Below are positions 5,403 to 27,574 of a DNA stretch of 64,000 bases, piece after piece. The DNA is taken from positions 124,001-188,000 of the forward strand of contig JAEOUA010000007.1 of the NCBI GenBank assembly GCA_016839555.1, given 5' to 3'. The position numbers and the translations under genes were made by a program. Each line of letters starts with the position of its first letter. Within the stretch, counting starts at the first letter, position 1. The notes beneath the pieces are model-generated. The model had not been told where the DNA came from. It did not search any database and was given only the letters and a program-made list of their open reading frames with translations. Source of the DNA: Promethearchaeota archaeon (GTDB lineage: Archaea; Asgardarchaeota; Lokiarchaeia; Sigyniarchaeales; SOKP01).

Positions 5403-6536
5403 ATGGAATATAAGAATGAAAAACCCGCTATACTAATGCTAAAAGATGGCCGATATTTTAAGGGTATCGGGTTCGGTGCAACTAAAATTGTTACAGGAGA
5501 ATTAGTATTTACAACAATAACTGGCGCAGGATATAATGAAACGCTCACAGATCCCTCCTATCAAGGTCAAATTGTTATTATGACTCATCCTTTAGTGGGA
5601 AACTATGGTGTACCTTCATGGGAGAAAGATGAATATGGGTTAATAAAATATTTTGAATCTGAATCTATTAAAGTAAGTGGATTTGTTGTAAATGAATGTT
5701 GTAAGCATCCCCATCATTATAAAAGCGTAAAAAATTTGGATCAATTTCTCACAGAAGAAGATATTCCAGGAATTGAATGGATGGATACGCGTGCTATCAC
5801 GAAAATCTTACGAGAAGAAGGAGTGCAAGTCGGATTATTAGCTGTTTTTAATCCTGGAAAAAAACCTAATATTGAAGAATTAAGAGAAATGGTAAAAGAG
5901 GCAGAAGATCCAAATCTAAGAAAATTAGCTGGTGAAGTCTCTGTTAAAAAAATTAAAAAATATTCACCAGTCAACCCTCGAGGAAGAGTGGTAATTTTAG
6001 ATTTAGGTGTGAAATATAGTATTATACGAAATTTATTAAAAAGAAATATAGAAGTAATTCTCGTACCATATGACTATACTTATGAGCAAATAATGAAATA
6101 TAGTCCTAATGGAGTAATTATATCAAATGGTCCGGGAGATCCCAAATTATATTATAATGCCATAGAAGTAAGTACAAGGTTGATGGAGGATGATATACCA
6201 ACCTTCGGAATATGTTTAGGAAACCAAATAATAGGCTTAGCTGCGGGGGGAACTTCCTATAAATTAAAATACGGGCATCGGGGCGGGAACAAAACCGTTA
6301 TAAATCCAGAAACAAGACGTTGCTATATTACCTCTCAAAATCATGGATATTGCGTAAAAGATTTTGAAGCAGGGGGTTTTATAGAATTTTTAAAAAACAT
6401 AGATGATGACTCAAATGAGGGAATTATTCATGAACGAAAACCAATTTTTGCGGTTCAATTTCATCCTGAAGCCTCGCCAGGTCCTCTAGATTCTATATAT
6501 TTATTTGATAAATTTATTGAATTGATGGAGATCTGA
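5403..6536 (+). CDS. carA: Carbamoyl-phosphate synthase small (glutaminase) subunit, catalytically intact copy
   Basis: 'GICLGNQIIGLAAGG' with nucleophile Cys (codon 6213-6215) and 'FAVQFHPEASPGP' with catalytic His (6462-6464). Confidence 0.95.
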   Translation: MEYKNEKPAILMLKDGRYFKGIGFGATKIVTGELVFTTITGAGYNETLTDPSYQGQIVIMTHPLVGNYGVPSWEKDEYGLIKYFESESIKVSGFVVNECCKHPHHYKSVKNLDQFLTEEDIPGIEWMDTRAITKILREEGVQVGLLAVFNPGKKPNIEELREMVKEAEDPNLRKLAGEVSVKKIKKYSPVNPRGRVVILDLGVKYSIIRNLLKRNIEVILVPYDYTYEQIMKYSPNGVIISNGPGDPKLYYNAIEVSTRLMEDDIPTFGICLGNQIIGLAAGGTSYKLKYGHRGGNKTVINPETRRCYITSQNHGYCVKDFEAGGFIEFLKNIDDDSNEGIIHERKPIFAVQFHPEASPGPLDSIYLFDKFIELMEI

Positions 6537-6540
6537 TATC

Positions 6541-9500
6541 ATGCCTTTTGATAAATCCATTAAAAAAGCCTTAGTTTTAGGGAGTGGAGGTATTCGAATT
6601 GGCCAAGCAGGTGAATTTGACTACTCGGGTTCCCAAGTTTTAAAAGCCTTAAAAGAAGAGGGAATAGAAACTATCCTTATTAACCCAAATATTGCAACAA
6701 TTCAAACAGATCCTCAATTATCTGATAGAGTATATTTATTACCTATTAATGTTAAATATGTAGAAAAAGTTATCAAAAAGGAACGTCCTGACGGAATTCT
6801 TCTCTCATTTGGAGGACAAACAGCTCTTAATGTTGGAGTAGAACTCCAAGAATTAGGAATATTGGAAAAATATAATGTCCGTGTTTTAGGAACTCCTATT
6901 GAGGCAATCGAGGCGACAGAAGATAGGGATTTATTTGTAAAAGCAATGAATAAATCTAATGCCCCCGTGTGTAAAAGTAAGGCCGTCAATTCATATAATG
7001 AAGCAATTAAAACAGTGGAGGAATTTGGTTTTCCTTTAATGATAAGGGTAGCCTATACTTTAGGAGGAAGAGGTTCTGGTATTGTTTCTGATATCAAAGA
7101 ATTTGAAAAAATGGCAAGAAGAGGATTGGCACAATCCAGAATAAATCAAATACTTATTGAGGAGAGTGTATGGGGCTGGAAAGAAATTGAATATGAAGTT
7201 GTCCGTGATGCAGCAGATAATTGTTTTATAAATTGCAATATGGAGAATTTTGATCCTGTAGGTGTGCACACCGGGGAATCAATTGTCGTAGCCCCTTCTC
7301 AGACTCTTACTAATGAAGAATATCAAATGCTCCGTTCCGCGTCAATACGAATTATTAGAAATTTAGGGATTATTGGAGAATGTAATATTCAATATGCCCT
7401 TCATCCAAAAAGTAATGAATTTAGAGTAATTGAAGTAAATGCCCGTCTTTCAAGATCTTCCGCTTTAGCTTCAAAAGCGACGGGATATCCTTTAGCTTAT
7501 ATAGCTGCGAAATTAGCAATTGGATATCAACTTCCGGAATTGAAAAATAAAATTACAGGTAAAACGACCGCGTGTTTTGAACCCGCGTTAGATTATCTTG
7601 TCTTGAAAATTCCGCGCTGGGATATGACCAAATTTCAAAGAGTTGACCGTCATATCGGCAGTCAAATGAAGTCAGTCGGCGAAGTGATGGCTATTGGACG
7701 CACCTTCGAGGAAGTATTACAGAAGGCTGTCCGAATGCTCGATATTGGTATGAAAGGAATGGTTTCGAATGATTTAGAGCCAATTGAAGACCTTAATGAA
7801 TTAAAATATAACCTAAGAAATCCCACCGATTTACGAGTTTTTCGCTTGATTGAGGCTATTAAGAGAGGATTAGATCTCGATGAGATTTATAACCTTTCAA
7901 GAGTCGATAAATGGTTCCTCTATAAATTGCAAAATATTATTAATATTGAACGCCAGATTGAATCTTTAGATCTTTTAAAGTCTTCTGACTCTCAAAAAAA
8001 ATATATACTTAAAAGAGCAAAACGTTTTGGCTTTTCGGATGGACAAATCGCTAAAATTATGGGAATAGATACCATTCAAATACGTAATTTGCGCAGACGC
8101 TTCAACATTACTCCTTGCGTAAAACGAATTGATACCTTGGCAGCGGAATGGCCTGCTATCACTAATTATTTGTATCTTACTTATGCAGGTTTGGAGCATG
8201 ATATTGACTATGAACAAGAGGCTAGAAAGAATTTGCAAAAAATCATCGTGCTTGGAAGTGGTACATATCGAATTGGGGCGAGTGTTGAATTTGATTGGGG
8301 TTCTGTAAATTGCCTATGGGGTTTAAAAAAGCAAGATGTTGATCAAGCTATTATTATTAATTATAACCCAGAGACGGTTAGTACCGATTATGATATCAGC
8401 GATAAACTTTATTTCGAAGAGCTTTCGGGTGAGAGGGTATTAGATATATGTGAGTTAGAAAATCCCTATGGTATTATTGTTTCAGTAGGAGGGCAAATCG
8501 CAAATAACCTTGCCGCCAAATTCTCTAAGTATAGTGAGTTTTTTAGGAAAGTTGGTATTAATATCTTAGGGACTCACGGCTCTCGTATTGATATGGCGGA
8601 AGATCGTAGTAAATTTAGTAATTTGTTAGACCAATTGAATATCGGACAACCCCAATGGAAAACTTTGACCAATAAAGCGGAAGCGATAGATTTTTCTAAA
8701 GATGTGGGTTATCCCGTTCTCGTGCGCCCTTCCTATGTATTGAGCGGAGCTGCTATGAGAGTCTGTTATGATCAAAAGACATTGCAAGACACTTTAGATC
8801 TCGCCGCTTCCGTATCGAGTGAGTATCCCGTGGTAATTACCAAATTCTTTACTGATGCCCGTGAAGTAGAATGCGATGGAGTGTGCGATGGAGAAGAGGT
8901 GCTTATTGGAGCAATTGTGGAGCATATAGAAAATGCTGGAATTCATTCTGGAGATGCTACAATGGCAATCCCTCCTCAAACCATCTCAAATGAGGTGATT
9001 GAGATAATCAAAAAATACACAAAACAGATCGCTTTAGCACTTAAAATAAAAGGTCCTTTCAATGTTCAATATTTAGTAAAGAATGGGGGCGTCTATGTTA
9101 TCGAATGTAATCTCCGTTCAAGCCGCAGCATGCCTTATGTATCTAAAACCCGCGGCATTAACTTAATGCGAATCGCGGCAGAAATCTTCATGGGAAAGAA
9201 AATCCCCAAGCGATTATTAGATTTATCCTATGGGGATTATATCTCAGTAAAAGCTCCCATGTTTTCCTTCATGCGATTAGATAAAGCCGACCCAATTCTT
9301 GGCGTCGAGATGAATTCAACGGGGGAATGTGCGAGTTTTGGCGATACTTTTCCGGAAGCATTAGTAAAAGCAATTGAATCAACTGGTAGAAATATTCCGA
9401 TTTACGGGGGGAACGTCCTAATTTCAGTAGGCGGAGAGGAATTAAAGAAAAAAATTATCCCCTTAGCACAGAAATTAAGAAATATGGGCTTTACCATTTT

Positions 9501-9852
9501 TGCTACGGAGGATACTGCGTTAGCAATGAAAAAAAACGGGATATTCGCCGTCAAGCTGTATAAAATCTATGAATACGGAAAGGAGCCGAACATTGTGAGT
9601 TGCCTAGAAAATGCTGCTATAGACCTCGTTATAAATATCCCACTTCCAACAACCGTGGAAGAAAAATTCAGGCAAATTATGGAGGATGAGTATGTAATCA
9701 GGCGGAAGGCAGTTGATTTTAATATTCCTGTGATTACGAACTTTGAGTTGGGAGCCGCACTAGTAGACGCTATAGAAGAATTGCGCCATAAAGAAATCTC
9801 TATTAAATCTTTAAATGAATACCATAAAACCCTAAAAGAAGTTTATTGGTAG
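6541..9852 (+). CDS. carB: Carbamoyl-phosphate synthase large subunit
   Basis: Two ATP-grasp halves; 'KALVLGSGGIRIGQAGEFDYSGSQ', 'LSRSSALASKATGYPLAY', C-terminal MGS-like domain. Confidence 0.97.
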   Translation: MPFDKSIKKALVLGSGGIRIGQAGEFDYSGSQVLKALKEEGIETILINPNIATIQTDPQLSDRVYLLPINVKYVEKVIKKERPDGILLSFGGQTALNVGVELQELGILEKYNVRVLGTPIEAIEATEDRDLFVKAMNKSNAPVCKSKAVNSYNEAIKTVEEFGFPLMIRVAYTLGGRGSGIVSDIKEFEKMARRGLAQSRINQILIEESVWGWKEIEYEVVRDAADNCFINCNMENFDPVGVHTGESIVVAPSQTLTNEEYQMLRSASIRIIRNLGIIGECNIQYALHPKSNEFRVIEVNARLSRSSALASKATGYPLAYIAAKLAIGYQLPELKNKITGKTTACFEPALDYLVLKIPRWDMTKFQRVDRHIGSQMKSVGEVMAIGRTFEEVLQKAVRMLDIGMKGMVSNDLEPIEDLNELKYNLRNPTDLRVFRLIEAIKRGLDLDEIYNLSRVDKWFLYKLQNIINIERQIESLDLLKSSDSQKKYILKRAKRFGFSDGQIAKIMGIDTIQIRNLRRRFNITPCVKRIDTLAAEWPAITNYLYLTYAGLEHDIDYEQEARKNLQKIIVLGSGTYRIGASVEFDWGSVNCLWGLKKQDVDQAIIINYNPETVSTDYDISDKLYFEELSGERVLDICELENPYGIIVSVGGQIANNLAAKFSKYSEFFRKVGINILGTHGSRIDMAEDRSKFSNLLDQLNIGQPQWKTLTNKAEAIDFSKDVGYPVLVRPSYVLSGAAMRVCYDQKTLQDTLDLAASVSSEYPVVITKFFTDAREVECDGVCDGEEVLIGAIVEHIENAGIHSGDATMAIPPQTISNEVIEIIKKYTKQIALALKIKGPFNVQYLVKNGGVYVIECNLRSSRSMPYVSKTRGINLMRIAAEIFMGKKIPKRLLDLSYGDYISVKAPMFSFMRLDKADPILGVEMNSTGECASFGDTFPEALVKAIESTGRNIPIYGGNVLISVGGEELKKKIIPLAQKLRNMGFTIFATEDTALAMKKNGIFAVKLYKIYEYGKEPNIVSCLENAAIDLVINIPLPTTVEEKFRQIMEDEYVIRRKAVDFNIPVITNFELGAALVDAIEELRHKEISIKSLNEYHKTLKEVYW

Positions 9853-9928: not shown

Positions 9929-10087
9929 ATGGCAATATCAACTAATAATAGGTATAGAAGTTGCGTTGACTGCGACCATTATAATGAGGAGAGGCAATAT
10001 TGTGAATACTTTAAGAGAAAGCTCTCTCCACACTGTTATTGTTTAGTAGACGGAAATATGGTTTATTTCCTTAAAAACAATAACTAA
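9929..10087 (+). CDS. Small 52-aa Cys-rich putative zinc-binding protein
   Basis: Manual translation MAISTNNRYRSCVDCDHYNEERQYCEYFKRKLSPHCYCLVDGNMVYFLKNNN; CxxC and C...CxC plus His, located between the two carAB pairs. Confidence 0.45.
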   Translation: MAISTNNRYRSCVDCDHYNEERQYCEYFKRKLSPHCYCLVDGNMVYFLKNNN

Positions 10088-10252: not shown

Positions 10253-11392
10253 ATGATTTATAAAACTGAAAAACCAGCTATTTTGATGTTAGATAGTGGG
10301 CTATATTTTAAGGGAATTGGTTTTGGCGCCGTTAAAAAAGTATCTGGTGAAATCATATTTAATACAATACCAGGTTCGGGTTATGTTGAATTATTAACTA
10401 ATCCCACAAATAAAGGAAAAATTATAGTATGTACATACCCCTCCATCGGTAACTACGGGGTTCCCGCAAAATTGAGAGATGAATATGGGATATTAAAACA
10501 GTTTGAATCAGACTCAATTCATATAAATGGACTCGTAATCAGCGAATATTGTGATACACCGAGTCATTATGAAAGTATCAAAACCTTAGAGGAATGGCTT
10601 ATAGAGGAGGATATTCCTGCTATACAATGGGTAGATACGAGAAGGTTAACCCAATATCTCGTTCAAAATAAAACCTCTATGGGGATTTTACAAGTTTTTG
10701 ATCAAAATAGCAAACCAAATATTCAAGCTTTACGAGAAGAAGCAAAAAAATTAAAGAATTTAAATAAAAGAAATTTAGTAGAAGTGGTTTCCACCAAAAA
10801 AGTGAAAACTTATTCTTGTGAAAATAGTAAGGCAACAGTTCTCATTATTGATTTAGGAGTGAAAAACGGTATTTTAAGGGTTCTTCTCAAAAAAAAGATG
10901 GATATCGTTATAGTTCCCCATAATTTTTACTATAATAATATAATGGAGTTAAGGCCTGATGGAATTTTGATTTCAAATGGACCAGGGAATCCGAAAATAT
11001 ATTCTGAAATCGTGAACTTAATCGAAAAACTTCTAAATACAGAAACTCCAATGATGGGAATAGGATTGGGTCATATTTTAATTGGATTAGCGGCAGGTGC
11101 AGAAGTCTATAAGATGAAAGCCCCTCATAGAGGGGGAAGAACAACTGTGAAAAACTCAACAAATCAATGTTATATAACTTACCAAAATCATGGCTATTGT
11201 TTAAAAAGTTTAAAAGAAAATGGTTTTTCAGAATACTTTCATGATAAGGATGATGGATCGAATGAAGGGCTGATTCATAAAAATAAATCAATTTTTTCAG
11301 TTTTATTTAATCCAGAAGGATCCCCTGGGCCATTAGATGTGAGGGATATCATATTTGATAAATTTATAGAATCAATCAAGGTGAAGAAATAA
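10253..11392 (+). CDS. CarA paralog with degenerate glutaminase active site
   Basis: Aligns along its length with CarA at 5403. 'GICLG' is 'GIGLG' (Gly codon gga 11063-11065) and 'FHPEASPGP' is 'FNPEGSPGP' (Asn codon aat 11309-11311). Confidence 0.92.
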   Translation: MIYKTEKPAILMLDSGLYFKGIGFGAVKKVSGEIIFNTIPGSGYVELLTNPTNKGKIIVCTYPSIGNYGVPAKLRDEYGILKQFESDSIHINGLVISEYCDTPSHYESIKTLEEWLIEEDIPAIQWVDTRRLTQYLVQNKTSMGILQVFDQNSKPNIQALREEAKKLKNLNKRNLVEVVSTKKVKTYSCENSKATVLIIDLGVKNGILRVLLKKKMDIVIVPHNFYYNNIMELRPDGILISNGPGNPKIYSEIVNLIEKLLNTETPMMGIGLGHILIGLAAGAEVYKMKAPHRGGRTTVKNSTNQCYITYQNHGYCLKSLKENGFSEYFHDKDDGSNEGLIHKNKSIFSVLFNPEGSPGPLDVRDIIFDKFIESIKVKK

Positions 11393-14300
11393 TGCCCTTG
11401 GATAAATCAATCAAGAAAGTTCTCGTTTTAGGCTCTGGGGCAGTCAGAATCGGACAAGCAGGAGAATTTGACTATTCTGGTTCTCAAGTACTTAAAGCAT
11501 TAAATGAGGAGGGTATTGAAACAATTCTCGTGAATCCTAATATTGCCACAATCCAAACAGATCCTCAAATGTCTGATAAAGTTTACTTGGTTCCAATAAA
11601 TGTTAAATATGTTGAGGAAATTATTGAAAAAGAACGACCGGATGGAATCTGTCTTTCTTTTGGTGGGCAAACAGGATTAAATGTGGGAGTAGAATTAAAA
11701 GAAGCGGGAATTTTAGATAAATATAATGTGAGAGTTTTTGGAACACCAATTAAAGCTATTGAAGCTACTGAAGATCGTGATTTATTTGTAAAAGCGATGA
11801 ATGAAGCTAATTGCCCCGTATGTAAAAGCAAAGCGGTAACAAGTTATAAGGAGGCAAAACAAGTAGTTGAAAAATTTGGATTTCCTCTTATGCTGAGAGT
11901 GGCTTATGTTCTTGGAGGGAGAGGCTCTGGAATAATCCACAATATGAAGGAATTTGAACGAAAAGCAAAAGTTGGCTTGGCTCAATCAAGAATTAATCAA
12001 ATTTTAATTGAGGAATCAGTATGGGGCTGGAAAGAAATAGAATTTGAAATTCTTAGGGATGCGGATGATAATTGCTTTATTAATTGCTCTATGGAAAACG
12101 TTGATCCCTGTGGAATTCACACTGGAGATTCAATTGTAGTCGCTCCCGCTCAAACTCTAACTGATGAAGAATTACAAATGCTTCGTTCAGCATCAATTAG
12201 AGCTACTAAAGCTGTCGGAGTCTGTGGAGAGTGTAATATTCAATGGGCTTTAGATCCTTTCTCTAAAAAATATAGAGCAATTGAGATAAATGCAAGATTA
12301 TCTCGATCTTCCGCATTAGCTTCTAAAGCCACTGGCTATCCATTAGCGTATATTGCTGCGAAAATTGCAGTGGGATATACTTTACCAGAGCTTATAAATC
12401 AAATAACCTTAAAAACCACCGCAAATTTTGAACCCGCCACAGATTATATGGTCTTAAAGTATCCTCGATGGGATTTAACAAAATTTGAAAAGGTTGATAG
12501 ACATATTGGTCCTCAAATGAAAGGCGTAGGGGAATGTATGAGTATTGGAAGGTGCTTTGAAGAGGTATGTCAGAAAGCATTACGCATGTTAGATATTAAT
12601 CTGAAAGGATTTGTTGCAAATGATCTTGAACCGATTGAAGATATAAATGAATTGAAATATGAATTAAGAAATCCCACAGATTTAAGATTCTTAAGAATTA
12701 GTGAAGCAATAAAACGAGGGATTTCTATTGAAGAAATTTATGAACGGTCCAGAATTGATAAATGGTTTCTTCATAAATTAGAAAATATCATTAAAATTGA
12801 GAAGGAATTAGAAAACCTAGACTTTTTACAATCTTCTGATGAAGATAAAGAATATTTATTAACAAGGGCAAAAAGATTTGGTTTTTCTGATGGACAAATT
12901 GGTAAAATCATGGGATTGACTACTCCCGTAATACGAAGATTGCGAAAACGATTAAGAATTGTTCCCTATGTAAAACAAATTGATACATTGGCAGGTCAAA
13001 TTGAACCTGAACGTCATTATTTATACCTTACTTATTGGGGGGATAAACATGATATTGATTTTGAGAAAGAAGAGCAAGAAAATCAAAAAAAAGTGATTGT
13101 CTTAGGTTCAGGAACGTATCGAATAGGCTCCTCTGTTGAATTTGATTGGGGTTGTGTTAATTGTTTGTGGGGTTTACAAGAGCTTGGTGTTGATAAAGCG
13201 ATAATTATTAATTATAATCCTGAGACGGTAAGTACAGATTATGATATTTCTGATCGTCTTTATTTTGAGGAACTTTCAGGGGAACGGGTGCTAGATATCT
13301 GCGAATTAGAAAAACCATATGGAATTGTGCTAAACGCAGGGGGTCAAATCGCCCAAAATCTTGCCGCAAAGTTTGCAAAATATTCAGAGTTTTATCGAAA
13401 AACCAATATAAGGATATTGGGAACGCATGGCTCTCGTATCGATATGGCAGAGGATCGCGTGAAATTCAGTGCCCTCCTTGATGATCTACATATTAATCAA
13501 CCCGAATGGGCAATGCTTACCACTACAGAGGAAGCTATTGAGTTTGCCGAAAAAGTAGGATATCCAGTATTAGTGAGACCTTCTTATGTATTAAGTGGTG
13601 CTGCAATGCGAGTATCTTATGATAAAAAAACCTTAAAAGATACACTTGACTTAGCTGCGGCAGTATCTCGAGAATATCCAGTAATTATAACAAAATTTTT
13701 TACAGATTCAAGAGAGGTGGAATGCGACGGGATTTGCGATGGGGAGAATGTATTGATTGGAGCTATAGTGGAGCACATTGAAAATGCCGGTGTTCATTCT
13801 GGGGACGCCACCATGACAATCCCTCCACAGACTATTTCTAAAAAAATAATAAAACAAATAGAAGAATATACACGAGAAATTGCTTTAGCTTTGAAAATAT
13901 TAGGGCCATTTAATATTCAATATTTAGTAAAGGATGGGGAAGTTTCTGTGATTGAATGTAATTTAAGATCCAGCCGTAGCATGCCGTATGTATCTAAAAC
14001 ACGCGGAATAAATTTAATGAAATTAGCAGCAGAAGTTATAATGGGAAATAAAATACCAAAAAAATTAATAGACCTTCCCTATGGTAATTTTGTGGGAGTA
14101 AAAGCTCCCATGTTTTCATTTATGCGATTGGATAATGCAGATCCCATTTTAGGAGTGGAGATGAACTCTACTGGTGAAGTGGGGGTACTCGGAGATGATT
14201 TCGCAGATGCTTTAATGAAGGCACTTGAAGCTGCCGAAAATAATATACCTATTAAAAATGGAAATGTATTAATTTCAGTGGGAGGAGAGGAGCTTAAGAA

Positions 14301-14703
14301 GAAAATAATCCCTTTAGCAAAAAAATTGAAAAATATGGGATTTACGATCTTTGCGACGGAGGATACTGCTCTGGCTCTTAAAAAGAATGGAATTGATACT
14401 GTAAGATTATATAAAGTACATGAAGTTGGAAAAGAGCCAAATATTATGAAATGTTTACGAAAAGGAGAAATAGATTTAGTAATTAACATCCCCTTACCAA
14501 CGACGGTCAAAGAGAAATTTAGGCAAATAATGGAGGATGAATATAAAATTAGACGCCATGCGGTCGATTTTAATATTCCTGTTATCATTAATTTACAACT
14601 TGCCAAATCATTAATTAACGCCATTGAAAAAATGCGTCAAAAACAATTCTCAATTAAGGCTTTAAATGATTACCATAAATCATTAGAAGAAGTGTATTGG
14701 TAA
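11392..14703 (+). CDS. carB: Carbamoyl-phosphate synthase large subunit, second copy
   Basis: Same length (1103 aa) and closely similar to the CarB at 6541; all ATP-grasp motifs retained. Confidence 0.96.
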   Translation: MPLDKSIKKVLVLGSGAVRIGQAGEFDYSGSQVLKALNEEGIETILVNPNIATIQTDPQMSDKVYLVPINVKYVEEIIEKERPDGICLSFGGQTGLNVGVELKEAGILDKYNVRVFGTPIKAIEATEDRDLFVKAMNEANCPVCKSKAVTSYKEAKQVVEKFGFPLMLRVAYVLGGRGSGIIHNMKEFERKAKVGLAQSRINQILIEESVWGWKEIEFEILRDADDNCFINCSMENVDPCGIHTGDSIVVAPAQTLTDEELQMLRSASIRATKAVGVCGECNIQWALDPFSKKYRAIEINARLSRSSALASKATGYPLAYIAAKIAVGYTLPELINQITLKTTANFEPATDYMVLKYPRWDLTKFEKVDRHIGPQMKGVGECMSIGRCFEEVCQKALRMLDINLKGFVANDLEPIEDINELKYELRNPTDLRFLRISEAIKRGISIEEIYERSRIDKWFLHKLENIIKIEKELENLDFLQSSDEDKEYLLTRAKRFGFSDGQIGKIMGLTTPVIRRLRKRLRIVPYVKQIDTLAGQIEPERHYLYLTYWGDKHDIDFEKEEQENQKKVIVLGSGTYRIGSSVEFDWGCVNCLWGLQELGVDKAIIINYNPETVSTDYDISDRLYFEELSGERVLDICELEKPYGIVLNAGGQIAQNLAAKFAKYSEFYRKTNIRILGTHGSRIDMAEDRVKFSALLDDLHINQPEWAMLTTTEEAIEFAEKVGYPVLVRPSYVLSGAAMRVSYDKKTLKDTLDLAAAVSREYPVIITKFFTDSREVECDGICDGENVLIGAIVEHIENAGVHSGDATMTIPPQTISKKIIKQIEEYTREIALALKILGPFNIQYLVKDGEVSVIECNLRSSRSMPYVSKTRGINLMKLAAEVIMGNKIPKKLIDLPYGNFVGVKAPMFSFMRLDNADPILGVEMNSTGEVGVLGDDFADALMKALEAAENNIPIKNGNVLISVGGEELKKKIIPLAKKLKNMGFTIFATEDTALALKKNGIDTVRLYKVHEVGKEPNIMKCLRKGEIDLVINIPLPTTVKEKFRQIMEDEYKIRRHAVDFNIPVIINLQLAKSLINAIEKMRQKQFSIKALNDYHKSLEEVYW

Positions 14704-17125: not shown

Positions 17126-18781
17126 TTATTGTTTAAAATTTATTTTCTTTAAGACGGGATATCTTCTTCCGATTCCGAATGCACTAGAACTTACTTTAAT
17201 CGATTGAACTAATTGTCTTCTCTTAAATTCCGCTTTTAAATAAAGATTTTCTACTTTGTCAATTGTTTCAGAACTAATTCCATATTTTTTAAGTTCTGTA
17301 AAATTGGTCCCAATTCCATAATTTATTATATTCTGAAGAATTTTGTCTAAAATAGAATAAGGTGGTAAAGAATCGCTGTCTTTTTGATTTTCTCTCAGCT
17401 CTGCTGTTGGGGCTCTTGTTATAATTCCATTCGGTATTATTTCTTCATTTCGATTAATCCATTCACATATATCATATATTTGCACTTTTAAAAGATCTCC
17501 TGGAATATTTTTTCCTCCACATGTATCGCCATATAATGTACAATATCCAACAGCTATTTCTGACTTATTTCCAGTAGAAACCAGGAGCCAATTATATTTA
17601 TTTGAATAATACATCAATATATTAGCTCGGATTCTTGCCTGCAAATTCTCATCAGCAATATCAAATGAGATTTCTCCTAGCTTATTTTTAAGTGAATCTT
17701 CAAAACTATTGAAAACTTCATCAATAGGATGGATGATATATCGAGATCCAATATTCTCACATAATTTACGTGCTAGATCTATACTTTCTTGAGAAGTATA
17801 TCTTGTTGGCATCATGATATTGGTAACCTTATCTGGTCCAAGTGCTTTAGCACAAACATAAGATGTAAACGCGGAGTCAATACCACCGCTCAAACCTAAA
17901 ACAACTCCATCGAATATATTAATTTTATGAAAATAATCGTATAAATTAAGTGAAAGTGCTTCTATTACCTCTTCTCTCCAATCTTTAGATTTTTCTATCT
18001 CTTTAATATGCTCTTTTTTATCAATATGGAGAGTAATAGATGGAAAATCCTCTTCAAATGCTTTAGCTTTGTAAAAAAGTTGACCAAATTGATTAATAAT
18101 AAAACTTTGTCCGTCATAGACAATCTCATCTAATCCCCCAACCATATTGACATATATTATTGGAATTTGGAATCTTTTTGCTTTCTCGCAAATTATTTTT
18201 TTTCTTATCTCAAATTTATCAATATGATAAGGAGATGCATTGATAACTATTAATAATTCTGCCCCATTTTGAACCAAATTATCCGCAACTTTAATATCAT
18301 AATGTTCATCCCATATATCTTCGCAAATCAAGATTCCAACTTGGACACCTTTAATCTCAATCGGTTTAAATTGTTCATCAAAAGAGAAATATCTGCGTTC
18401 ATCAAATACATCGTAATTAGGTAATAATCGCTTATTTTCAATATATTTGATTTTTTTATTTTCAATTACAAGAGCAGAATTGTAGAATCTCTGAATTTTT
18501 TCCTTTAATTCTTCAGGTTCAGTAAATGTGCCGAGAATTATTGTAGATTCTGTATCTAATTCTGTAATCTCATCAATATATTCCTTATTCTTTTCGCAAA
18601 TCATAGGGTCAAGGATATGATCCATTAATGGATAACCCACTAGAGACATCTCAGGAAATATTATCATATCAGCTTTTTTGTTGGATTTAATGATCTGAAC
18701 AATTTTTTCTGCATTGTATTTTATATCTCCTACAATTGGATTAATCTGTCCGATTAAAACCGTTAATTGTCTGTTTTCCAT
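17126..18781 (-). CDS. nadE: Glutamine-dependent NAD+ synthetase
   Basis: N-terminal CN-hydrolase domain ('IIFPEMSLVGYP', 'VGILICEDIWDE') fused to a synthetase with PP-loop 'LGLSGGIDSA'. Confidence 0.94.
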   Translation of the reverse strand: MENRQLTVLIGQINPIVGDIKYNAEKIVQIIKSNKKADMIIFPEMSLVGYPLMDHILDPMICEKNKEYIDEITELDTESTIILGTFTEPEELKEKIQRFYNSALVIENKKIKYIENKRLLPNYDVFDERRYFSFDEQFKPIEIKGVQVGILICEDIWDEHYDIKVADNLVQNGAELLIVINASPYHIDKFEIRKKIICEKAKRFQIPIIYVNMVGGLDEIVYDGQSFIINQFGQLFYKAKAFEEDFPSITLHIDKKEHIKEIEKSKDWREEVIEALSLNLYDYFHKINIFDGVVLGLSGGIDSAFTSYVCAKALGPDKVTNIMMPTRYTSQESIDLARKLCENIGSRYIIHPIDEVFNSFEDSLKNKLGEISFDIADENLQARIRANILMYYSNKYNWLLVSTGNKSEIAVGYCTLYGDTCGGKNIPGDLLKVQIYDICEWINRNEEIIPNGIITRAPTAELRENQKDSDSLPPYSILDKILQNIINYGIGTNFTELKKYGISSETIDKVENLYLKAEFKRRQLVQSIKVSSSAFGIGRRYPVLKKINFKQ

Positions 18782-19040: not shown

Positions 19041-20276
19041 ATGGCTGAAGCTGATATTGCTTTTGTTTTGATATGCACTGGTTTGGTCTTTATAATGACA
19101 CCTGGATTAGCCTTCTTTTATGGCGGATTATTAAGGAAAAAAAATATTATTAATATGATGGCAATGTGCTTTGTTTCCATTGCGATCGTTTCTATCTTAT
19201 GGTTTTTCTTAGGTTATAGTTTAGCATTTGGTCCTGATATTGGAGGTTTTATTGGCGGATTCGATTATATAGGATTAATCGGAGTAGATTTTCAATCGGA
19301 ATTCGATTTTTCATTAATATTAGGAGATATCTACAGATATTTCTTTCTTGCTCCAACAATTCCTGACATGTTATTTATGGTATTTCAGTTAATGTTTGCT
19401 ATTATTACTGTTGCAATAATTGCAAGTCCATTTTCAGAAAGAGTAAACTTTGGTGCTTTTTGCATTTTTATCTCTATTTGGTTAATCATCGTGTATTCTC
19501 CAATTGCTCACTGGGTGTGGGGAGAAGGAGGATGGTTAAATGTTATGGGCGCACTTGATTTTGCTGGAGGTACAGTTGTTCACATAAATGTGGGATTTGC
19601 CGCATTAGCAGTAGCAATGGTAATAGGACCACGTGCAGGATATCAAAAAGAATCACATGGACCATCCAATATACCTTATGTATTATTAGGAATGGGATTA
19701 TTATGGATCGGGTGGTTTGGTTTCAACGGAGGTAGTGCTTTAGCTGCAAATGGTGATGCTGTTTTAGCAGTATTTAACACGCATATCGCTGCAAGTTCTG
19801 GGGGCATAATTTGGATGTTGATTGAATATTCAAGAACAAAAAAATTCAGTACTTTGGGTCTCGCTTCAGGAGTGCTTGCGGGCTTAGTTGCCATAACACC
19901 AGCAGCTGGATTTGTACAACCATGGGCGGCACTTCTTATAGGAACTATTTCAGGAGTATTTTGCTTTTTCGCACTTTCCCTACGTTCACGCTCGAAAATT
20001 GATGAATCATTAGATGCTATCTCTATTCATGGAACAGGAGGTATCTGGGGTGCAATTGCTACAGGAATATTCGCAAGTATAGGTTCATCTGGATTACTTT
20101 TAGGAAATTTAGTACAATTCTTTATCCAAATACTCGGTGTTGTAGTAACCATAGGATTTTCATTTGGTATAACTTATGCTTTAGCATGGGTTCTTAATAA
20201 AACAATTGGATTTAGAGTACCTATTGAATTGGAATATGTAGGTCTTGATATGTCGCAGCATGGAGAAATAGCATGA
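19041..20276 (+). CDS. amt: Ammonium transporter
   Basis: Amt core 'MTPGLAFFYGGLLRKKN', 'DFAGGTVVHINVGFAALA', 'SIHGTGGIWGAIATGIF'. Confidence 0.96.
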   Translation: MAEADIAFVLICTGLVFIMTPGLAFFYGGLLRKKNIINMMAMCFVSIAIVSILWFFLGYSLAFGPDIGGFIGGFDYIGLIGVDFQSEFDFSLILGDIYRYFFLAPTIPDMLFMVFQLMFAIITVAIIASPFSERVNFGAFCIFISIWLIIVYSPIAHWVWGEGGWLNVMGALDFAGGTVVHINVGFAALAVAMVIGPRAGYQKESHGPSNIPYVLLGMGLLWIGWFGFNGGSALAANGDAVLAVFNTHIAASSGGIIWMLIEYSRTKKFSTLGLASGVLAGLVAITPAAGFVQPWAALLIGTISGVFCFFALSLRSRSKIDESLDAISIHGTGGIWGAIATGIFASIGSSGLLLGNLVQFFIQILGVVVTIGFSFGITYALAWVLNKTIGFRVPIELEYVGLDMSQHGEIA

Positions 20277-20281
20277 GGTGA

Positions 20282-20629
20282 ATGAGAATGAAAAAAATTG
20301 AATGTTTTATTAGGGCAGAAAAGCTTGAAATAGTGAAAAAAGCTTTATTCGAGAAAGGAATAAAAGGTATGAGTATTTATGAAGTACGTGGTCATGGTCA
20401 TCAAAGAGGCATGTTGTTAACAGGAAGAGCAGGACAATATTGTGTTGAATGGATCGGAAAACTAAAAATGGAAATTGCTATTAGTGATAAAGTGAATCTT
20501 GATGAAATTATTGATGTTATCATTGAAAATGCTAGAACGGGCAATCCAGGCGATGGAAAAATTTTCATTATTCCTATAGAAGATGCAATCAGAATTAGAA
20601 CCAACCAAAGAGGAGAAGAAATACTTTAA
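20282..20629 (+). CDS. glnK: P-II nitrogen regulatory protein
   Basis: 'MKKIECFIRAEKLEIVKKALFEKGIKGMSIYEVRGHGHQRG' and C-terminal 'TGNPGDGKIFIIPIEDAIRIRTNQRGEEIL'; directly downstream of amt. Confidence 0.94.
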   Translation: MRMKKIECFIRAEKLEIVKKALFEKGIKGMSIYEVRGHGHQRGMLLTGRAGQYCVEWIGKLKMEIAISDKVNLDEIIDVIIENARTGNPGDGKIFIIPIEDAIRIRTNQRGEEIL

Positions 20630-26375: not shown

Positions 26376-27574
26376 TATGAATTACCTCCCATAATAGTTA
26401 ATTTAATTTTTTCAAATGGTTGTTTGAGTCCATCATTAATTAATCCCTCGCCCACTCTTGCAATAATAGCTGTCCCACTTTTAGGATGCCAAATCTCTTT
26501 AAAATTAAATCCGTTGCTGGAATCTAAGATAAGGCGTCTAAAGGAGGCTTCTTCACTGCTCAGAAATATAGTATTTTCATCATCTGATAATCCTGCCACG
26601 AGAGGGCGGAGTTTTTTTCTATCAGAAAGACCAATTAGAGTAGGAATTGGATCCGTCATCCCAACTACAATAGAGAAGGGACCATTTAACATAGTAGATC
26701 GATAAGTTGCTCTTAAATTTTTTAGAATATATTGATATTTTTTATCCATTTGGTTAATCTCTTTAAATAATGGAGGTGCTAATGCAATAGTCGTGATTGA
26801 AAGAGGTATTTTATGTTTTCTTACTAATAAATCGAAAAGATAAGCAATAACCTCAGTGTCAGTTTTTAAGGTACATTTATATCCAAATGATTCTAAGTAT
26901 CGCATATTAGTACCATAAGATGTAATTTCCCCATTATGAACTACACTTGTTCCTAAAAGATTGAATGGGTGTGCGCCACCCCACCATCCAGGTGTATTTG
27001 TCGGAAATCTACTATGTGCTAGCCACATATAAGCTTTATAATCTTTAATATTATAAAAGTCTGCAATTTCATAAGACCATCCATTTCCTTTAAAGACCCC
27101 CATATTTTTACCAGATGACATAATATAAGCCCCTTCGAAGTTGGAATTAATATCCATGACCAATTGGACGACTTCTTCATCAGGCGAAACACTTTTCATC
27201 TCTTTTGGTTCATAGAATACTCGCCAAGTGATAGGTGGAAAATCAATATGTCCGGGAACTTTCGTTGGGATGGCTTCAGAATGAATAATATAACCCATTT
27301 TTTCTAGATGGTTTATAACATGTTCCTTGCATTTTTCATGGTCAAATAAAAAATGAAGAGCATAATAATCTTTATATTTTGGATAAATTCCATAGCCTGC
27401 AAAACCAGCACCTAATCCGTTTTCTCTTTCACTTAAAATACAAAGCATATCAAATACTTTTTGTCCACTTTCTCTTTCACTGTTTAAATTTAAAAAGCCA
27501 GAAATTCCACATCCGTCAAAAACTCTTTCATTTCGAAAAAGCTCTGGTAAAGAAGTATAATTTTTCCAAATCAT
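26375..27574 (-). CDS. Glutamate synthase class-II glutamine amidotransferase subunit
   Basis: 'GCGISGFLNL' Ntn-Cys region, 'LAHSRFPTNTPGWWGGAHPFNLLGTSVVHNGEITSYGTN'. Confidence 0.9.
   Translation of the reverse strand: MIWKNYTSLPELFRNERVFDGCGISGFLNLNSERESGQKVFDMLCILSERENGLGAGFAGYGIYPKYKDYYALHFLFDHEKCKEHVINHLEKMGYIIHSEAIPTKVPGHIDFPPITWRVFYEPKEMKSVSPDEEVVQLVMDINSNFEGAYIMSSGKNMGVFKGNGWSYEIADFYNIKDYKAYMWLAHSRFPTNTPGWWGGAHPFNLLGTSVVHNGEITSYGTNMRYLESFGYKCTLKTDTEVIAYLFDLLVRKHKIPLSITTIALAPPLFKEINQMDKKYQYILKNLRATYRSTMLNGPFSIVVGMTDPIPTLIGLSDRKKLRPLVAGLSDDENTIFLSSEEASFRRLILDSSNGFNFKEIWHPKSGTAIIARVGEGLINDGLKQPFEKIKLTIMGGNS

Follow-up and report, generated by a model that had tools for sequence, protein, structure and literature searches.

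A lokiarchaeal carbamoyl-phosphate synthetase pair with a putative pseudo-glutaminase small subunit, a candidate ammonia-dependent enzyme

Tandem carAB pairs in the analyzed DNA

The DNA analyzed here, referred to as the window, is a stretch of 64,000 nucleotides (positions 124,001 to 188,000 of contig JAEOUA010000007.1, assembly GCA_016839555.1) from a Promethearchaeota archaeon. Its list of open reading frames (ORFs) contains two tandem carAB pairs encoding the small (CarA) and large (CarB) subunits of carbamoyl-phosphate synthetase (CPS), and the source genome holds exactly two CarA genes. The subject of this report is the second pair, carA2-carB2, whose small subunit lacks the residues required for glutamine hydrolysis. 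Pairwise alignments gave 51% identity between CarA1 and CarA2 and 76% identity between CarB1 and CarB2. The features of both pairs and of related loci are listed in Table 1.

Table 1. Positions of the carAB genes, of altered sites in carA2 and of neighboring or associated genes. Positions refer to the window unless a locus (L) is given; GATase, glutamine amidotransferase.
Feature	Position	Strand	Remark
carA1	5403-6536	+	Glutaminase subunit with Cys, His and Gln intact
carB1	6541-9852	+	CPS large subunit, partner of carA1
carA2	10253-11392	+	CPS small-subunit paralogue, predicted dead class-I GATase site
gga (Gly271), catalytic cysteine position	11063-11065	+	Gly in 11/11 orthologues
APHRGG-RTT (residues 290-298), lacking one residue next to the tunnel glycine, E. 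coli Gly293	11120-11146	+	Alignment
aat (Asn353), catalytic histidine position	11309-11311	+	Asn in 11/11 orthologues
carB2	11392-14703	+	Full-length CPS large subunit, catalytic residues in both ATP-grasp halves
NadE	17126-18781	-	
Amt ammonium transporter	19041-20276	+	
PII/GlnK	20282-20629	+	
87-108 aa protein	L040:9099-9359		
87-108 aa protein	L057:3932-4192		
87-108 aa protein	L060:3466-3750		
87-108 aa protein	L042:16406-16729		

Loss of glutaminase residues in CarA2

In E. coli CarA, Cys269 and His353 are both essential to glutamine hydrolysis (PMC6245113). Codons 271 (gga) and 353 (aat) of carA2 align with these two positions, and the corresponding motifs read GICLGNQ/FHPE in CarA1 and GIGLGHI/FNPE in CarA2. 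A preliminary description of this DNA had reported the Cys→Gly and His→Asn changes, which proved correct to the base, as well as the intact GATase residues of the first CarA, where Cys, His and Gln are indeed kept. It had overlooked that Gln273 and Ser47 are absent as well, that a residue next to Gly293 (E. coli numbering) is deleted, and that the changes recur in all orthologues found. The glutamine-binding Gln273 is replaced by Ile in the CarA2 of the window and by F, I, M, N or V among the orthologues. Ten orthologues were compared residue by residue. Ser47, which likewise binds glutamine, is T or V in all of them that cover it, one of the ten being a fragment in which this region is missing, and a single residue immediately following the Gly293 position is absent. 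The glutamine pocket is partly retained (Gly241, Gly243, Asn311 and His312).

The absence of the Cys-His pair and of Ser47 and Gln273 sets CarA2 apart from glutamine-hydrolysing CPS (CPS II, EC 6.3.5.5) and supports the view that its glutaminase chemistry has been lost. CarA2 is a full-length CarA protein with CPSase_sm_chain and class-I GATase domains (profile scores: PF00988, 120 bits; PF00117, 121 bits). It also scores 353 bits against the NCBIfam model TIGR01368 (“glutamine-hydrolyzing carbamoyl-phosphate synthase small subunit”; cut-off 307), and automatic annotation would therefore mislabel it as glutamine-hydrolysing. An alignment-based AlphaFold model of CarA2 (pLDDT 77, pTM 0.79; low confidence for residues ~290-312) matches the E. 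coli CarA structures 1jdb/1a9x with a TM score of 0.85.

Conservation and divergence of CarB2

CarB2 contains two ATP-grasp halves with their ATP, metal and bicarbonate residues, followed by the oligomerisation and MGS domains expected of a CarB protein, and scores 1415 bits against the CPS large-subunit model (cut-off 1027). In a comparison with E. coli, the catalytic positions examined are conserved except where CarB1 departs too, as at E. coli D753 (S or T in CarB2, T in the active-looking CarB1). The earlier characterization of CarB2 as intact and close to CarB1 thus holds for these residues and for overall identity.

Fixed differences between CarB1 and CarB2 are unevenly distributed (Fisher p 0.0003). 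The N-terminal half holds 20 of the 22, of which 15 lie in ATP-grasp A and five in the oligomerisation domain; the other two, at residues 553-680, are in the C-terminal half, and ATP-grasp B and the allosteric domain have none. Genome G014 is left out of this count because the C-terminal half of its CarB2 clusters with CarB1; an apparent complete lack of fixed differences in the C-terminal half was rejected, being partly due to this genome. The small subunit of E. coli docks in the N-terminal half of the large subunit (PMC6245113), and the clustering suggests that the functional divergence of CarB2 is concentrated in the region of bicarbonate phosphorylation, ammonia reaction and (in E. coli) small-subunit docking.

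In the carB2 gene of G014 (locus L061), the N-terminal half groups with CarB2 and the C-terminal half with the CarB1 of the genus (G006 and G014). This pattern is probably the result of gene conversion that left the divergent half untouched.

Distribution and origin of CarA2

The survey of orthologues comprised a search of relatives together with 232 genomes of the phylum and, beyond the phylum, a pattern scan only. CarA2 was identified in 11 lokiarchaeal genomes of seven genera (G000, G001, G008, G010, G014, G016, G018, G021, G029, G030 and G140; a fragment in G021), and its close relatives in named genomes all belong to Candidatus Lokiarchaeota/Lokiarchaeia. The Cys→Gly and His→Asn changes and the loss of Gln273 are common to all 11. 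Among the CarA1-type sequences of the same alignment, the cysteine is kept in 45 of 45 and the histidine in all that reach that far; further CarA1 sequences outside this set agree. The preliminary description had called for such a survey, and neither an assembly-specific change nor a CarA2 orthologue retaining Cys or His was found. Sequencing or assembly error is ruled out by the occurrence of the same changes in 11 independently assembled genomes. Literature searches in a library of open-licence papers turned up nothing relevant on Asgard archaea and no description of an archaeal CarA lacking the cysteine.

Phylogenetic analysis placed CarA2 in one clade (support 100/100) within the CarA of the lokiarchaeal family, which indicates a single loss of the glutaminase, subsequent to duplication of carAB in this family. 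CarB2 is monophyletic as well. Human CPS1 branches outside lokiarchaeal CarA (on a long branch, its exact placement being unsure), in keeping with the proposal that the archaeal enzyme evolved independently of its vertebrate counterpart.

In every genome fetched carB2 comes after carA2. A tandem arrangement of the two carAB pairs was seen in G000, G001, G008, G030 and, truncated, in G029; in G010, G014 and G016 they lie on different contigs. Nine of the 11 carriers retain CarA1B1, or what is left of it where a contig ends.

Selection and evolutionary rates

In eight genomes having both pairs, CarA2 distances were 1.83 times the CarA1 distances (2.17 for the N-terminal domain and 1.69 for the GATase domain), while the CarB2/CarB1 ratio was 0.98. 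The ratio of nonsynonymous to synonymous changes (dN/dS), whose comparison between the two subunits had been suggested beforehand, was 0.096/0.841 (~0.11) for CarA2 and 0.055/1.361 for CarB2 in the closest pair of genomes (G018-G140). Taken together, the dN/dS values and the distance ratios indicate that CarA2 is constrained, if more loosely, and that CarB2 is constrained like CarB1. CarA2 is under purifying selection; recent pseudogene decay of carA2 is ruled out by dN/dS and by the intact reading frames.

Comparison with known carbamoyl-phosphate synthetases

A pseudo-glutaminase, ammonia-specific CPS is known from the vertebrate urea cycle (CPS1), where it is tied to terrestrial life. Among solved structures, vertebrate mitochondrial CPS1 (CPS I, EC 6.3.4.16) is the best sequence match for both CarA2 and CarB2. 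Like CPS1, CarA2 retains a glutaminase-like domain in which the equivalents of the catalytic Cys, Gln273 and Ser47 are all replaced (in human CPS1 by Ser294, Leu and Ala, respectively), and the combination of an apparently dead glutaminase-like moiety with an intact-looking synthetase, typical of CPS I, recurs in CarA2B2. In human CPS1 the Cys→Ser replacement is the reason for the inability to use glutamine, and Gln318, at the Gly293 position, blocks the ammonia tunnel; a separate ammonia path has been proposed along the moiety interface, starting between Glu82 and His142 (PMC4655335). CarA2 has a deletion beside this tunnel position instead of a replacement, and it retains, as does CarA1, Glu and His at the positions of the Glu82/His142 entrance.

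CarA2B2 departs from CPS1 in that (i) it consists of two polypeptides, whereas CPS1 is one fused polypeptide that needs N-acetylglutamate, (ii) CPS1 has Ser but keeps the catalytic His, whereas CarA2 carries Gly plus the His→Asn change, a loss beyond that of CPS1, and (iii) CarA2 nests inside lokiarchaeal CarA, and CarA2B2 shares neither the fused organization nor the common ancestry of vertebrate CPS I/III enzymes.

With bacterial and archaeal CarAB (CPS II), CarA2B2 shares gene order, two subunits, domain architecture and fold, but not the glutaminase residues. The two catalytic sites have been altered in E. coli CarA mutants: H353N (1a9x_B) is the same His→Asn change, and C269S (1c30) places Ser where CarA2 has Gly. 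CarA2 combines both sites, together with the Gln273/Ser47 loss and the tunnel-side deletion. E. coli CPS with a blocked or perforated tunnel retains ammonia activity (PMC4655335). Frog CPS I and CPS III of Alcolapia fish use ammonia after the loss of glutamine-site residues (PMC7657897); unlike CarA2B2, these are vertebrate fused enzymes in which the catalytic triad is kept and binding residues alone are lost. Archaeal carbamoyl phosphate formation without a standard glutamine-dependent CarAB has been described in Pyrococcus and Methanobrevibacter smithii (PMC6022934), but the proteins involved, a carbamate-kinase-like CPS of the amino-acid kinase fold and a small CPS that is a 41-kDa homodimeric ATP-grasp enzyme, respectively, are different from CarA2B2.

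Proposed function and alternative explanations

Judged from sequence, carA2-carB2 rather probably encodes a heterodimeric ammonia-dependent CPS built on a pseudo-glutaminase scaffold, which would have arisen once and be convergent with vertebrate CPS1. According to this proposal, a single carAB duplication in the lokiarchaeal family would have been followed by a single loss of the glutaminase site. CarA2 would not hydrolyse glutamine and would act as a structural and conformational partner of the CarB2 bicarbonate domain. Free ammonia, as nitrogen donor, would enter near the CarA2-CarB2 interface and attack carboxyphosphate in ATP-grasp A; ATP-grasp B would then phosphorylate the resulting carbamate in the usual way. 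As a cellular role we infer the supply of carbamoyl phosphate under plentiful ammonia, with glutamine being spared. Ammonia dependence is suggested by the persistence of CarA2 beside CarB2 everywhere, by the intact appearance of the CarB2 catalytic residues and by genomes G018 (99% complete) and G140 (97%), in which CarA2B2 is the sole CPS detected, with no CarA1 or CarB1, and is accompanied by genes of the ornithine/aspartate transcarbamylase (OTC/ATCase) family.

Several observations weigh against this proposal. E. coli CPS can draw on ammonia only when it is very concentrated (PMC6245113), and CarB2 may be no better in this respect. CarA1B1, in nine of the 11 carriers, could meet the entire need for carbamoyl phosphate. 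G018 and G140 both encode a carbamate kinase; some genomes of the family have transcarbamylases with no detectable CarA or CarB. Carbamoyl phosphate could therefore come from elsewhere, and the CarA2-only genomes were dropped as proof of activity.

The preliminary description had left the choice between an ammonia-dependent and a regulatory enzyme; the sequence favors the former, with regulatory or altered-substrate roles as lesser possibilities. It is unlikely that CarA2 and CarB2 assemble with CarA1 and CarB1 into mixed oligomers in which CarA1 supplies ammonia and CarA2 modulates activity, its dead pocket perhaps sensing glutamine or another metabolite. The tandem arrangement in five genomes (truncated in one) makes co-expression plausible, and the similarity of the two CarB proteins and the retained pocket residues fit such an assembly; however, the pairs lie on different contigs in three genomes, CarA1 and CarB1 are absent from G018 and G140, and the glutamine-contacting Gln273 and Ser47 are lost. 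An altered chemistry, with CarB2 activating bicarbonate and either using another amine or delivering carboxyphosphate or carbamate elsewhere while CarA2 serves for docking, would explain the concentration of fixed CarB differences in ATP-grasp A, but is given a similarly low probability: the metal, ATP and bicarbonate residues of this domain and the carbamate-phosphorylating half are conserved, CarB2 scores well above the cut-off of the large-subunit model, and no gene for an alternative substrate is conserved beside the pair. Slightly less probable is a neofunctionalized CarA2B2 in which the altered bicarbonate half of CarB2 takes a non-ammonia nucleophile or feeds carbamate or carboxyphosphate elsewhere and the CarA2 pocket has become a metabolite sensor. 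The faster evolution of CarA2 relative to CarA1 could be taken as a sign of a decaying duplicate, but this explanation, like that of an artefact, is very hard to reconcile with identical changes in 11 independent assemblies, intact frames and the low dN/dS.

If ammonia dependence is correct, this archaeal two-subunit case would show that the transition to ammonia needs neither a urea cycle nor a fused enzyme. The coexistence of CarA1B1 and CarA2B2 in one genome would provide a natural comparison of how a synthetase changes after losing glutamine delivery. The case would also flag a family to which standard annotation would assign glutamine hydrolysis, and it bears on the nitrogen economy of Asgard archaea.

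Transcarbamylases with no detected CarA or CarB were found in lokiarchaeal genomes that are 92-99% complete (G007, G011, G015, G042, G049 and others). In family f1, carbamate kinase (TIGR00746) is absent from eight of the nine genomes with both pairs and present in most CarA1-only genomes, an association that is probably confounded by genus.

Gene neighborhood

The neighborhood of the pair in the window includes NadE, Amt and PII/GlnK genes (Table 1) and TauE/SafE-like transporters and, further along, split glutamate synthase genes and a glutamine synthetase. The nearby Amt/GlnK genes had been noted earlier and are present, but lend weak support, since the flanks differ in most other genomes. 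In G001, of the same genus, the flank contains an Amt-like gene together with a homologue of NadE (70% identical), and a glutamine synthetase homologue adjoins the tandem pairs of G030; across the compared neighborhoods there was no constant partner gene besides carB2. The nitrogen-related context is at most suggestive.

A conserved protein of 87-108 aa is encoded directly 3′ of carB2 in G008, G021, G029 and G030 (Table 1); the two sequences tested had no Pfam match. The gap between carB1 and carA2 in the window is unusually long (400 bp) and holds a 52-aa ORF (9929-10087, + strand) with cysteines spaced as in a small zinc-binding protein (CVDCDHYNEERQYC...HCYC). Beside the glutamate synthase genes, a class-II GATase-like protein is encoded at 26378-27574 (- strand). 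Its CGISGF motif is located ~21 residues from the start and is not N-terminal, so that a propeptide or an alternative start codon would be needed.

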